A stretch of 20,647 nt of DNA, taken from IMG/VR virus record IMGVR_UViG_3300035698_004186, positions 1 to 20,647 of that record, one strand, 5' to 3'. A program made the translations under genes and the position numbers. The notes under the pieces were generated by a model, which saw nothing but the letters and a program-made list of their open reading frames with translations, was not told the DNA's origin and did not search any database. This stretch comes from a virus. Positions 4,922-10,637 of this stretch are shown here, piece after piece. How positions within the stretch are numbered: the stretch's first letter is position 1; every line of letters begins with the position of its first letter.

Positions 4922-4945
4922 CTGTGTCGTTTTCCAGGGGTGACA

Positions 4946-6451
4946 ATGGGATTTACATACGTGGACGGGCGCAAGGCGGTAAGTATCAGCACGATTGATA
5001 ATTTCCTGGAATATCTGGTCAATCAGAATACGGGCGTTAAGAACAAAGACCAGCTTGTGCAGACAGTGGCATTTGCCTATCGTGCTGTACAGCTACGGTC
5101 ACAGGCAATCAAGGCATTGCCGTTTGAGATAACGCGCATCAAAGAACAGGGTGATGAAACCGGCAAGCCCGTTGACACCAGCGCAGACTATAAGGGCGTG
5201 CTGGAATGGCTGCCAAGCCCTACCCGTATGCTGGACCTGATGGAACAATCATTGTGTGTAGCGGGGCGTGCGTATTGGTTTAGACCGCGCAACCGTGTGA
5301 TACCGCTTGAACTGCAATACTGGAACCCGTATACGATTAAAGAAAAGATTGACGGCAAGACGGGTCTATTCTACTTCGAGCGGACTATTAACGAAGAGAC
5401 ACCCAAACGGTTTGAGGTTGATGAGGTGTTCTACGTCTGGCCTCCCGACTACCGGGTAGAACTAGGCCCACCGCGCGGGTCACCCATTGAAGCGGCATTC
5501 AAAGCGGCTGGTGTGCTTGACGGTATAGATGAGTTTGTCAAGATGTTCTTCGAGAACGGCGCTATTAAACCGCTATTGATTGCAGCGAAGGGCATGACTA
5601 ATCAGAAAGAGAGGGAACGGGTACGTGATTGGTTCAAAAAGGGATTGACCAGTCTGAAACAGGCATTCGGCGTTGAGGTTGTAAACGCCGACACGCTAAC
5701 CGCACTATCGATAGGCGAAGGCATCGAGAACCTGGACAACAACGCCTTGACAATGGAGCGCAGAGAATCGGTGGTTGCAGCGTTGGGTGTGCCTATGTCG
5801 ATGATCCTGAGTAGCACAATCGCCGGTATGGGTGGCGGTGGTGTAGCGACACAAGATGAATTGAACTTCAACAAGAACACCATACGACCAGAAGGCAATA
5901 TTATCGCTGAGATTATGAACAAGCAACTATTCGAGCCGGAAGGGTATAGGTTCAAGTTCCTATTCGATACAATGGACGTATTCCAGGTAGACGAACAGAA
6001 ACGCGCTATGTCATTCCAGATATACACGACAGGCACAAGCCCTATGCGCCCAGAGGTTGCGGCAACGATGCTTGGCCTTGAGATACCGAAAGATGACGCT
6101 ATCAAAGACTGGTATGCGGATGCATTCATTGAACCAGAGCCAGTACCGGAAGCACTAGCACAAGATGAGGGTGGCAAGGACGATGTGCCTCCAGCGGTAG
6201 AAAAGGAGCTGACCAAAGAACGCAAGAAAGAAAAGGATGACCAGCTCAAGGCATCCGACCTTGACAAATGGCTAGGCTTTGCAGTCAAGCGATTTAACGA
6301 GGGGCATCCAGAGAAGGCGCTACTATTTGAGAGTGATGAGATTGTGCCGACGCTACACGCAGGCATCCAGGGTGCGCTTGAAGGCTGTGAGGACGTTAAC
6401 GAGGTTAAAGCGGTATTTGCAAACGCCGCGTTATGGCAGGGGTATCCGTAG
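4946..6451 (+). CDS. Portal protein (HK97-type)
   Basis: The portal is the dodecameric ring at the unique capsid vertex through which DNA enters and leaves. It docks terminase and head-tail adaptors. The ATG at 4946 lies five bases after AGGGG and is preferred over GTG 4940. The product has 501 residues. Family-type segments are visible: AFAYRAVQLRSQAIKALPF near residues 42-60, the EYLPSP-like EWLPSPTRMLDLMEQSL, the loop ALGVPMSMI, and the helical FRFLFDTMDVFQ-like stretch before a TSPMRPEVAATMLGL segment. The last ~100 residues form a charged, Lys/Glu-rich extension (VEKELTKERKKEKDDQLKAS) that probably lies inside the head and is variable in the family. The stop overlaps the next start by one base. 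Confidence 0.93.
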   Translation: MGFTYVDGRKAVSISTIDNFLEYLVNQNTGVKNKDQLVQTVAFAYRAVQLRSQAIKALPFEITRIKEQGDETGKPVDTSADYKGVLEWLPSPTRMLDLMEQSLCVAGRAYWFRPRNRVIPLELQYWNPYTIKEKIDGKTGLFYFERTINEETPKRFEVDEVFYVWPPDYRVELGPPRGSPIEAAFKAAGVLDGIDEFVKMFFENGAIKPLLIAAKGMTNQKERERVRDWFKKGLTSLKQAFGVEVVNADTLTALSIGEGIENLDNNALTMERRESVVAALGVPMSMILSSTIAGMGGGGVATQDELNFNKNTIRPEGNIIAEIMNKQLFEPEGYRFKFLFDTMDVFQVDEQKRAMSFQIYTTGTSPMRPEVAATMLGLEIPKDDAIKDWYADAFIEPEPVPEALAQDEGGKDDVPPAVEKELTKERKKEKDDQLKASDLDKWLGFAVKRFNEGHPEKALLFESDEIVPTLHAGIQGALEGCEDVNEVKAVFANAALWQGYP

Positions 6452-7708: not shown

Positions 7709-7887
7709 TGGATAAGGTCTACATTGTGATCTACGAAAGTTACGGGGGTATACAGATAATCGGTGTCTTTGGTTCTAAGGATTTAGCAGGATCATTTGTA
7801 ACTGAACGCAAAACGAATTGGCACGCACCAGATGGTTTCAATATCGAGGAATGGACAGTAGACTAACATTGAAAGGGGAATGATGGA
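7695..7887 (+). repeat. 18-base direct repeat flanking one small gene (7695-7712 and 7870-7887)
   Basis: The same 18 bases, TGAAAGGGGAATGATGGA, occur at 7695-7712 and 7870-7887. Each copy holds a ribosome site (AAAGGGG) and the doubled ATGATG start of the next small gene. The copies are 175 bases apart and bracket the 52-residue gene almost exactly. Recombination between them would remove that gene while leaving a working start signal. The repeat could mark gain or loss of a cassette, or merely duplication of an efficient initiation signal. Confidence 0.8.
7708..7866 (+). CDS. Small protein resembling the DUF7336-type family, 52 residues
   Basis: The product starts MDKVYIVIYESYGG, continues with IIGVFGSKDLAGSF, and ends NIEEWTVD. 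I recall this as the layout of very short proteins (KVYIV...GVF.S...A...EEW.VD) annotated DUF7336, common in phages and mobile elements, with no known function. The fold is probably a small alpha/beta unit. Of two overlapping ATGs (7705, 7708), the second is in frame and follows AAAGGGG by four bases. The gene is bracketed by an 18-base direct repeat and is more AT-rich than neighbouring structural genes, which suits a gained accessory (moron-like) gene. The family call is from memory. Confidence 0.6.
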   Translation: MDKVYIVIYESYGGIQIIGVFGSKDLAGSFVTERKTNWHAPDGFNIEEWTVD

Positions 7888-8173
7888 ACGCGATTGGTCA
7901 AACTTGCTTGAGGATATTCGATATTTGAAGGGGAGACTTGACACGGAAGGCGATAGTGGATTTTCGTGGGGCGTTGGTGAAAGCTATAAAGATGAACACA
8001 CGATTGATCTTTATGGGCTTGCTGTTCGAGCGACCACAAAGAAACTTTATGATGGTGATAAAATCGCTATTTTGGTTTATCTTAGCACAGACCTGATACG
8101 TGAGCCAATAGCAACCAGGGTGATTAACTCAGGAGTATTAGAGGAGCTAGACTACTTTTTAGCAAACAACTAA
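7883..8173 (+). CDS. Hypothetical accessory protein, 96 residues
   Basis: I do not recognise this gene. By analogy with the copy of the same start signal at 7708, I take the second ATG (7883); 7880 is equally possible. The product is acidic, begins with a helix (DWSNLLEDIRYLKGRLDTEGD), and continues with strands (HTIDLYGLAVRATTKKLYDGDKIAILVYL) and a C-terminal helix (SGVLEELDYFLANN). It has no membrane span or signal. It precedes a strong terminator hairpin, so it is the last gene before the capsid unit. Codon use is more AT-rich than portal or capsid, suggesting an accessory gene placed between the portal and capsid modules. Confidence 0.65.
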   Translation: MERDWSNLLEDIRYLKGRLDTEGDSGFSWGVGESYKDEHTIDLYGLAVRATTKKLYDGDKIAILVYLSTDLIREPIATRVINSGVLEELDYFLANN

Positions 8174-8210: not shown

Positions 8211-8274
8211 CCGCCCACAGTTCAGAGGTATCAGCGTGAAGGCGCTCACACTTCTGAGGTGTGGGCGGTTTTTT
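8211..8274 (+). terminator. Strong intrinsic terminator-like hairpin just before the capsid gene
   Basis: The arms 8211-8228 and 8251-8268 pair over 18 positions. There are nine perfect pairs at the base (CCGCCCACA with TGTGGGCGG), one G-G mismatch, then eight more pairs including two wobbles. The 22-base loop holds a small inner hairpin (AGCG...CGCT). Six T follow directly (8269-8274). This is a textbook rho-independent terminator on the + strand. Unusually, it lies only eight bases before the capsid ribosome site with no room for a promoter in between. It may therefore attenuate upstream mRNA, be antiterminated, or protect a processed capsid mRNA. Confidence 0.85.
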
Positions 8275-8291
8275 GTTATCACGGAGGGGAG

Positions 8292-10148
8292 ATGGACAAC
8301 GCATTAAAGGCAATTAGTCAGACTGAGGATGAGATACGGGTAGGCAACTATATTGTGATGTTTGGTGGTCGTGACATGACGGGTGTACCAGTGGAAGGGT
8401 TTAATACCGGGCCGAAGAACGCAGACGGTAGCGCGGGTGAGTGGTTCGATAAGGACACTCAGATAGAAAGCCAATTCACAGCACTCGGCAAGATACCGCT
8501 TGACTGGGAGCACAGCAGAAACCCGGAAGGCATAGACGTTGGAATGCTAGGGTTTGTGGACTGGACAACCAAGTCTGTTGACGATACGGGCGTATTTGTT
8601 GAGCGTGTTTTGTATCGGCACAATAAATATGTCAATGCAATCAAACAGCTTATTGACTTTGGTGTAGTTGGTAGTTCGGTTGAGCCAAATCAGCGCAAGA
8701 TAAAATCAGCATCCAACGGGCGCATTGAATCATTCCCGATTATACGCGACACGCTGACGGTTACACCTATGGATATACGGATGCTTGATGAGAATGTTAT
8801 CCAGGCGTTTAAGGCGCTTGGTTTAGCAGAAACGCAGGAACCAGAGGCAACACCAGAGGGCAGCAATGCCGGTGATGCGGTGAAAGCGTCGGACGTTGGA
8901 ATTAACGAAGATGATTCACACATTAACGGAGGTATTGAGATGGAGAAAGAAGAAACTCCACAAGTCGATGTTGCCGCAATCGCTAAAGCCGCAGCAGAAG
9001 AAGCTGTAAAGGCGTATCGCAAGCAACTCGAAGCAGAACCAGCCGTGAAGTCAGCGGGCGTATTGGTTGAAGGGCCAGTTGTGGTTACTCACGATGAAGC
9101 CGACAACCCGTTCACCAGTCTGGCAGAACAGGCACGGGCAGTTAAGTCTGCCGCAGCCGGGTATAAAGCAGATTCCAGGCTAAGACGATTGGCGTTGAAA
9201 GCCCCAACAGGGGCTAGTGAGGGAACTCCCTCGACAGGTGGTTTCATGGTTGACCCCACACTTTCACCTGACATTATGAAGCCGTTGCACGAAGAAGGAC
9301 CGTTCACCAAACTCGCCCGCAAGATGCCCGTAGGCGGAAACTCTAACTACGGTTGGATCAATGGCGTTGATGAAACATCACGCGCAGATGGCAGCCGGTG
9401 GGGTGGGATTCGTGGTTATCGACTGGCTGAAGGTGCTGACAAAACAGCATCCAAACCATCATTCAGACGCATTAACTGGGAACTGAAAAAGTATGCTGTT
9501 CTCGTTTATGCAACTGATGAACTGTTGGCCGACGCTTCATTGTTCTCAACCATTGTCCGACAGGGCAGCGGTGAAGAACTGATGTTTATGGCTAATGATG
9601 ACATCCTGAATGGCGCTGGCACTGGTGGCCCCGCTGGTATCCTCAACTCTGGCGCGTTAGTGGCAGTAGCGAAGGAAACCGGACAGGCAGCCGACACCAT
9701 CGTTACCGAGAACCTGAACAGAATGTGGAGCCGTATGCACCCTCGCAGCAAGGCGAAAGCAGCCTGGTATGTGAACACTGATGTTATGACGCAGCTCGAT
9801 GACCTGGTGCTGAACAGCGCAGCCGGTTATCTCGAACCGCGTTTCATTCGCTACGGCGCAGACGGTGTTATGACGATGCGTGGCAAGCCAGTCTATGAGA
9901 CAGAGTTCAACGCCTCAGTAGGGACGGTTGGCGATGTTGTGCTGGCAGATATGAGCGAATACCTGTTCTGGGAAAAGGGCGGAGTACAGGCAGCCGTTTC
10001 TATCCACGTAAACTTCGTGGGTGATGAGACAGTATTCCGTTTCGTCTATCGATGTGACGGACAGACCTCGATGGCTTCACCGTTGACCCCGTACAAAGGG
10101 ACTGGAAACACGCTGAGCTCATTTGTAGCTTTAGCATCCAGGGATTAA
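8292..10148 (+). CDS. Prohead protease-major capsid protein fusion
   Basis: One ORF of 618 residues joins two functions usually encoded separately. The start at 8292 follows GGAGGGG; an ATG at 8259 lies inside the terminator arm. Residues 1-180 resemble the HK97 gp4-type prohead protease, with IPLDWEHSRNPEG (His74), a GMLGFV strand and GVVGSSVEP (Ser128/129). The usual third-residue motif (L-y-E-v-S) reads IIRDTLT, so the Glu is replaced or moved. Residues 180-216 are an acidic linker. Residues 217-310 form a helical, Ala/Glu/Lys-rich scaffold-like delta domain (AAIAKAAAEEAVKAYRKQLE). Residues ~310-618 are the HK97-fold capsid protein (GGFMVDP, NYGWING, YATDELLADA, ILNGAGTGGPAGIL, HPRSKAKAAWYVN). 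The protease presumably trims the delta domain during maturation. Confidence 0.9.
   Translation: MDNALKAISQTEDEIRVGNYIVMFGGRDMTGVPVEGFNTGPKNADGSAGEWFDKDTQIESQFTALGKIPLDWEHSRNPEGIDVGMLGFVDWTTKSVDDTGVFVERVLYRHNKYVNAIKQLIDFGVVGSSVEPNQRKIKSASNGRIESFPIIRDTLTVTPMDIRMLDENVIQAFKALGLAETQEPEATPEGSNAGDAVKASDVGINEDDSHINGGIEMEKEETPQVDVAAIAKAAAEEAVKAYRKQLEAEPAVKSAGVLVEGPVVVTHDEADNPFTSLAEQARAVKSAAAGYKADSRLRRLALKAPTGASEGTPSTGGFMVDPTLSPDIMKPLHEEGPFTKLARKMPVGGNSNYGWINGVDETSRADGSRWGGIRGYRLAEGADKTASKPSFRRINWELKKYAVLVYATDELLADASLFSTIVRQGSGEELMFMANDDILNGAGTGGPAGILNSGALVAVAKETGQAADTIVTENLNRMWSRMHPRSKAKAAWYVNTDVMTQLDDLVLNSAAGYLEPRFIRYGADGVMTMRGKPVYETEFNASVGTVGDVVLADMSEYLFWEKGGVQAAVSIHVNFVGDETVFRFVYRCDGQTSMASPLTPYKGTGNTLSSFVALASRD
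8926..8942 (+). promoter_or_regulatory. Internal ribosome-binding site and in-frame ATG within the fusion gene
   Basis: The sequence ACGGAGGT at 8926-8933 is a full-strength Shine-Dalgarno element. It lies seven bases before the ATG at 8940, which is exactly in frame (codon 217). It falls in the linker between the protease and the scaffold-like delta domain, which is where a stand-alone capsid gene would begin. In protein terms it encodes INGGIEMEKEE. Spacing is better than at the main start (7 versus 4 bases), so the internal start could be the stronger one. Confidence 0.8.
8940..10148 (+). CDS. Major capsid protein from internal in-frame start (nested in the fusion)
   Basis: Initiation at 8940 would yield 402 residues: a ~94-residue helical delta/scaffold region followed by the HK97-fold capsid domain. 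That is close to the 385 residues of the HK97 capsid precursor, so the nested product is a canonical full-length precursor, and the protease-carrying long form would be a minor species. The arrangement recalls lambda C/Nu3, where a scaffold protein starts inside the protease gene, but here it extends to the capsid protein itself. The likely cleavage zone is near GASEGTPSTGGFMVDP. Expression from this start is inferred from the ribosome site and the domain boundary. Confidence 0.75.
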   Translation: MEKEETPQVDVAAIAKAAAEEAVKAYRKQLEAEPAVKSAGVLVEGPVVVTHDEADNPFTSLAEQARAVKSAAAGYKADSRLRRLALKAPTGASEGTPSTGGFMVDPTLSPDIMKPLHEEGPFTKLARKMPVGGNSNYGWINGVDETSRADGSRWGGIRGYRLAEGADKTASKPSFRRINWELKKYAVLVYATDELLADASLFSTIVRQGSGEELMFMANDDILNGAGTGGPAGILNSGALVAVAKETGQAADTIVTENLNRMWSRMHPRSKAKAAWYVNTDVMTQLDDLVLNSAAGYLEPRFIRYGADGVMTMRGKPVYETEFNASVGTVGDVVLADMSEYLFWEKGGVQAAVSIHVNFVGDETVFRFVYRCDGQTSMASPLTPYKGTGNTLSSFVALASRD

Positions 10149-10160
10149 GGGAGGTATAAA

Positions 10161-10637
10161 ATGTCTGGACTTTATTCAGAACTGGTACACGTTATTGATG
10201 TATTGGCTCCGGTTGATACCGCAGGAGCGACCATTGAAACTGACATCGTTGACGCTGGAGAAGCGACACGGTTACAGTTCATAATTCAATTCGGCGTTAT
10301 CACTGGTGATACCGTTGTTATTACTCTCGAAGAGTGTGATGACATCACAGCTTCCAACTCTACCGCAATCGGGTTTAACTATCGTGAGAGCGCAGGCGTT
10401 GGAACTGACACAATGGGCGCAATCACCGCCGTAGGAGCTGGGGGCGTGACCGCTGCCGCAGACGACGATGGACACTCGTTCCTCATTGACGTTGATCCGG
10501 CAATGTTGGCTGCGGGTTATCCGTATGTGCGGCTAGTGGCTGACCCAGGTGGGTCTGCTTCTGTATGTTTGCTGAACGCTATTTGTATAGCAATTCCTCG
10601 GAATGCTCAGAGCGTTACACCGTCGATGGTTGACTAA
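10161..10637 (+). CDS. Probable capsid decoration or accessory head protein
   Basis: The product has 158 residues, is beta-rich and acidic, and has segments such as RLQFIIQFGVITGDTVVITLEE, a Gly/Ala-rich middle and YPYVRLVADPGGSASVC. It has no enzyme motif. The gene follows the capsid gene by 12 bases with ribosome site GGGAGGT. This position is usual for head decoration or stabilising proteins, and similar proteins are commonly encoded directly after capsid genes. With the capsid gene it forms a two-gene unit bracketed by hairpins (8211-8274 and 10658-10681), which would fit coordinated high expression. The decoration role is an inference from position and composition. Confidence 0.7.
   Translation: MSGLYSELVHVIDVLAPVDTAGATIETDIVDAGEATRLQFIIQFGVITGDTVVITLEECDDITASNSTAIGFNYRESAGVGTDTMGAITAVGAGGVTAAADDDGHSFLIDVDPAMLAAGYPYVRLVADPGGSASVCLLNAICIAIPRNAQSVTPSMVD

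Follow-up and report, generated by a model that had tools for sequence, protein, structure and literature searches.

Positions 8292–10148 of the window, by which we mean the whole 20,647-nt stretch of viral DNA analysed here, very probably form a two-start nested gene, encoding a 618-aa protease–capsid protein and, from an in-frame internal start, a 402-aa capsid precursor. As judged from the sequence, a single gene would thereby probably supply both plain capsid subunits and subunits that bear a protease. The features on which this reading is built are listed in Table 1. The neighbourhood is one of ordinary head genes, with a portal gene at 4940 and a Mu F-like gene at 6433. The flanking genes at 7880–8173 and 10161–10637 gave no PHROG match, the second gave no Pfam match either, and an Rfam scan of the window returned zero matches. 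Searches of phage and plasmid collections found no relative that was both close to the window and full-length.

Table 1. Features of the proposed nested gene and its upstream region (SD, Shine–Dalgarno sequence; coordinates are those of the window)
Feature	Position	Strand	Basis or remark
Strong hairpin directly 5' of the long start	8211–8268	+	-39.8 kcal/mol
U-tract TTTTTT 3' of the hairpin	8269–8274	+	Read from sequence
SD of the long start, GGAGG	8283–8287	+	Duplex energy -10.0 kcal/mol
Long ORF, encoding the protease-like domain, the linker and the capsid precursor	8292–10148	+	618 aa; ATG at 8292, stop at 10148; frame open and alignable over its full length in relatives
Protease-like domain, residues 1–160	8292–8771	+	His74 and Ser129 invariant in 30 aligned domains
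Codon of His74	8511–8513	+	Invariant position
Codon of Ser129	8676–8678	+	Invariant position
Predicted disordered linker, residues 161–227, containing the internal start	8772–8972	+	pLDDT < 50; poorly conserved in alignment
Internal SD, AACGGAGGT	8925–8933	+	GGAGG core at 8928–8932
Internal ATG, codon 217, putative start of the stand-alone capsid precursor	8940–8942	+	Sequence comparison
Nested capsid precursor ORF	8940–10148	+	402 aa; PF05065 and TIGR01554 matches; HK97 fold
N-terminal region of the nested protein, ~100 aa	8940–9236	+	Resembles the HK97 scaffolding (delta) domain in position and size
HK97-fold capsid core, residues 316–601	9237–10094	+	Profile matches and predicted fold

The capsid half of the long ORF is firmly identified as an HK97-type major capsid protein. 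PF05065 matches the core with an E-value of 1.8e-36 (126 bits, cut-off 24.2), and TIGR01554 matches residues 222–599 with an E-value of 1.4e-46 (159 bits, cut-off 27.5). The latter match covers model positions 24–381, so that an ordinary HK97 capsid precursor would begin near codon 217. The predicted structure of this part has the HK97 fold, with the GTA capsid as the best PDB match (E 2.5e-13) and HK97 and T5 also among the matches, and the predicted structure of the whole protein has a helix at residues 227–248. In HK97 itself, a scaffolding region of 103 residues precedes a capsid domain of 281 residues (PMC10275583); the nested frame divides into about 100 and 302 residues, which bears out the original prediction of a 402-residue product with the layout of an HK97 precursor. 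By analogy, the N-terminal region of about 100 residues would presumably play the part of the delta domain and be removed at maturation.

The assignment of the N-terminal domain is less direct. The domain in the window matches no protease family, with nothing from PF04586 (Peptidase_S78) or TIGR01543 at E ≤ 1. Among 30 homologous domains that could be aligned with it, 12 match PF04586 (best E-value 1.4e-11) and 10 match TIGR01543 (best 8e-12), and all keep the candidate His and Ser (His74 and Ser129). In an AlphaFold model of the domain (pLDDT 76), the 13 best PDB matches are herpesvirus capsid proteases, albeit weak ones, with E-values of 0.026–0.08 and TM scores of about 0.2–0.35. We take the first 160 residues, on the basis of their relatives and predicted fold, to be a putative prohead protease of the phage and herpesvirus kind. 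The fusion of an HK97 gp4-like protease to a capsid protein had been read from the window alone; the capsid part of that reading stands on profile and fold, and ‘gp4-like’ is an indirect label for this sequence, its closest solved folds being the herpesvirus proteases with their weak scores. The NCBIfam model for prohead protease/major capsid protein fusions, NF045541 (cut-off 525 bits), gave no match to the window; the relative L040 scores 23.6 bits, below that cut-off. Several relatives (L021, L060, L049 and L026) carry an extra segment of the type CKEKVM..G..EEAAYGICYMSV before the protease domain, which is absent from the window, and one of the 30 aligned N-terminal parts matches DUF6582 (E 1.5e-28).

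Between the two domains lies the putative second start, where codon 217 is, as predicted, an ATG at the domain junction, 7 nt from the GGAGG core. Its SD has the strongest duplex energy of the in-frame starts scored, -10.8 kcal/mol, as computed with a standard 16S tail, which is assumed for the host. The linker is predicted to be disordered, so that a start inside it cuts no domain. Relatives were drawn from IMG/VR and one Chloroflexota genome and reduced to 64 distinct capsid sequences, with three contigs cut at the 5' end (L032, L039 and L070) left out of the calls of fused or split genes. The scored set consists of 35 distinct fused-frame sequences, the window included, which make up 25 groups at an identity threshold of 60%.

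Each of the 35 has, 41–59 codons before a conserved capsid motif, an ATG whose SD energy is ≤ -5 kcal/mol. The same threshold is reached by 11.8% of the other in-frame ATGs (n = 416; Fisher P = 2.7e-29 against the junction) and by 4.6% of selection-matched 21-codon windows from the same ORFs, each given the same best-of-21 search (n = 812). The mean SD energy is -7.7 kcal/mol at the junction and -2.1 kcal/mol at the other in-frame ATGs. In every case the ATG lies at an SD spacing of 5–11 nt, compared with an ATG of any sort in 35% of the control windows. The residues at the start are diverse (NGGIEM, SKENTM, QGVTEM, TGVKTM and LGANKM, for example), and the comparison proposed with the original prediction, of whether SD and ATG are kept while the linker varies, thus came out in its favour.

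Several observations show that selection acts here on the nucleotides. When codons were resampled with the amino acids fixed and each ORF's own usage retained, the mean SD energy was -4.8 kcal/mol and none of 1000 resampled sets reached the observed mean (z = -7.1), a signal that is collective, the P values of single sequences being mostly weak and the 35 relatives not being independent of one another. Two codon registers are used for the SD core, (A)GGA GNN in 15 sequences and AAG GAG or similar in 20. Because these encode unrelated residues, of the Gly-Val type and the Lys-Glu type, respectively, the conservation is of nucleotides rather than of protein. The mRNA around the internal start is also richer in A+T than the rest of the ORF and ranks with its most open stretches (median rank 0.9%). 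Compared with codon-resampled sequences, the junction is lower in G+C (0.357 versus 0.437) and less folded (MFE -2.6 versus -4.6), values which none of 200 resamplings reached. By these comparisons the internal SD and ATG are beyond chance expectation, and the tests together support a working second start.

Further information comes from relatives in which the two genes are split. In the capsid tree the fused sequences do not form one clade; four split sequences (L010, L026, L028 and L029) form a fully supported clade among the fused ones, adjoining the fused L040 (support 89/91). Within this clade a stop or frameshift falls in the linker, and the capsid gene opens, with an SD, at the counterpart of the internal ATG. 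The protease frame of L026 is closed by an in-frame TAA, from which there are 17 codons to the capsid ATG; in others the protease and capsid are in different frames. A second split case, L024, has its SD beside the protease stop. The sequences of the split relatives thus suggest that the product of the internal start can suffice as a capsid protein.

The evidence bears on three other explanations. One is that all the capsid protein is made in the long form and cleaves itself at the linker, the internal start being unused or marginal. Whilst a disordered linker would be cleavable, and fusions in cultured phages are annotated as single products (PMC5513430, PMC7302621), we consider this improbable: it implies one protease for each subunit within the shell, and it leaves unexplained both the ATG, SD and open, A+T-rich mRNA kept beyond amino-acid need in 35/35 sequences and the split relatives whose capsid begins at the same point. 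It is very improbable, too, that the internal SD and ATG are an unselected remnant from before two separate genes were joined. Tailed phages do commonly encode protease and capsid in separate genes, and split relatives exist, but the fused relatives have diverged (median end branch 0.23) with the signal decayed in none of them, deep lineages included, and the codon resampling shows that it is maintained. Moreover, the best-placed split clade is nested within the fused ones, which fits fission of a fused gene better than a recent fusion. That the SD-like sequence, lying as it does at a domain boundary, pauses ribosomes to aid folding and is not a start is scarcely credible, since pausing needs neither an ATG at 5–11 nt, as found in all 35 sequences, nor an open start region.

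In the two-start reading, ribosomes at 8292 would make the 618-aa protease–capsid protein, and those starting independently at 8940 would make the 402-aa precursor, consisting of a scaffold-like N-terminal region and the HK97 fold. We infer that both proteins are made, with the short form in excess. Since the capsid and scaffold-like parts are common to both products, co-assembly would be expected, giving a procapsid composed mostly of short subunits with a minority of long ones. The long subunits would carry the protease inside the shell, facing inward with the N-terminal region. There it would cut the N-terminal region off all subunits, after which the former protease carriers would be ordinary mature capsid subunits, identical to the rest. 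As the two SDs differ little in strength (-10.0 and -10.8 kcal/mol), the ratio of long to short product is not readable from the sequence.

The long start has a conserved feature of its own. Directly before its SD lies a 58-nt hairpin followed by six U (8211–8274). A hairpin with a U-tract (≤ -12 kcal/mol) is found within 130 nt upstream in 21 of the 27 fused sequences whose long start could be scored, the U-tract beginning 13–46 nt before the long start in these 21, and a hairpin of ≤ -20 kcal/mol is found in 18 of the 27. Background SD-bearing ATGs from the same loci gave 7/204 and 2/204 at these two thresholds, respectively. The split relatives L026, L029 and L024 also have a hairpin and U-tract before the protease gene. 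The structure looks like an intrinsic terminator, which is puzzling ahead of the most-needed gene; it may be overcome by read-through or antitermination, or may serve to stabilise the 5' end of the mRNA.

Nested genes of this general kind are known. In phage lambda, the structural protein Nu3 is made from a second start, in frame, within the protease gene C. The herpesvirus UL26/UL26.5 pair is likewise a protease gene with a nested C-terminal gene; UL26.5 is a separate transcription unit and, unlike the nested product in the window, it encodes a scaffold and not a capsid protein. About 10% of the scaffold of herpes simplex virus is linked to the protease (PMC12474303). Phage Mu and the Mu-like phages of P. 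aeruginosa have a protease gene with an in-frame internal start and SD for the scaffold (PMC4378225). The likeness of Mu and lambda to the window is thus an in-frame SD start inside a protease gene, here conserved among relatives; what they nest is a scaffold, which later leaves the head, whereas here the nested product would be the major capsid protein together with a scaffold-like region. Outside head genes, the Enterococcus phage endolysin LysIME-EF1 has been proven by experiment to use an SD (AAGGAGA) and ATG inside a linker; the C-terminal domain made from them assembles with the full-length protein, which is a lysis enzyme and not a capsid protein (PMC7098653).

Fusions of protease and capsid have themselves been described before (PMC5513430, PMC7302621, PMC11080557, PMC6563490). 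Those of the actinobacteriophages (Arthrobacter AM/AU/AN, Microbacterium EE/EL and Rhodococcus RRH1) and of Lactococcus phage 1706 and its relatives also have one ORF with the protease followed by an HK97-type capsid; they are annotated as one product, named ‘major capsid and protease fusion protein’ in the actinobacteriophages, with no internal capsid start noted (PMC5513430, PMC7302621, PMC11080557). The actinobacteriophage and 1706 fusion phages were absent from the matches of a tblastn search with the protein of the window. The thaumarchaeal proviruses Nvie-Pro1 and NCAV2-Pro1 also have a protease fused to the capsid protein, but are archaeal (PMC6563490).

We looked at internal starts in three other sets of fusions. 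Ten named phages of the 1706 type (L114–L121, L100 and L101) have a start codon at one aligned linker position, ATG in eight, GTG in one and TTG in one, with an SD energy of -5.7 kcal/mol or better and with 358–437 residues remaining. In most of them an NVF(D/E)-like motif follows directly on the aligned start, whose residue varies between Met, Val and Leu, all from start codons. In these ten phages the SD is no stronger than codon resampling yields, because the codons for a conserved Glu-Gly pair are already apt to read GAAGG; the family is thus consistent with an internal start, selection being undemonstrated by the resampling. In many fused phages with small genomes (Arthrobacter AN type) an ATG closely follows the protease domain, mostly with a weaker SD, and we do not count these phages as proof of an internal start. 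In Chloroflexota (L140–L169), NF045541-like protease–capsid frames were present in 60 of 301 sampled genomes, several with a strong SD and ATG after the N-terminal domain (for example at codon 218 in L140, -13.5 kcal/mol). Eight distinct sequences from these prophages passed the anchor filter and their junction is loosely defined, so the starts are suggestive only.

We found no report of a conserved internal capsid start in protease–capsid fusions in the open-access literature, which does not by itself prove novelty. Within the known nested genes and fusions, what appears to be new is the combination of a major capsid protein as the putative nested product with a start conserved across the family. 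We give an even chance to a more general rule, namely that the protease–capsid fusions of tailed phages, in several separate families, have two starts, the internal ribosome site fixing how much capsid is made relative to protease–capsid protein, and that the annotated fusion is the minor product. A shell built of hundreds of capsid subunits needs a few copies of the protease to mature, and a nested start would solve the dosage of the protease and its delivery together. It would also put tailed phages with fused genes alongside Mu, lambda and the herpesviruses, all of them using the same C-terminal sequence both with and without an N-terminal protease. For the clusters annotated as encoding a ‘major capsid and protease fusion protein’, that product may be the minor form, with the start of the capsid protein left unannotated.
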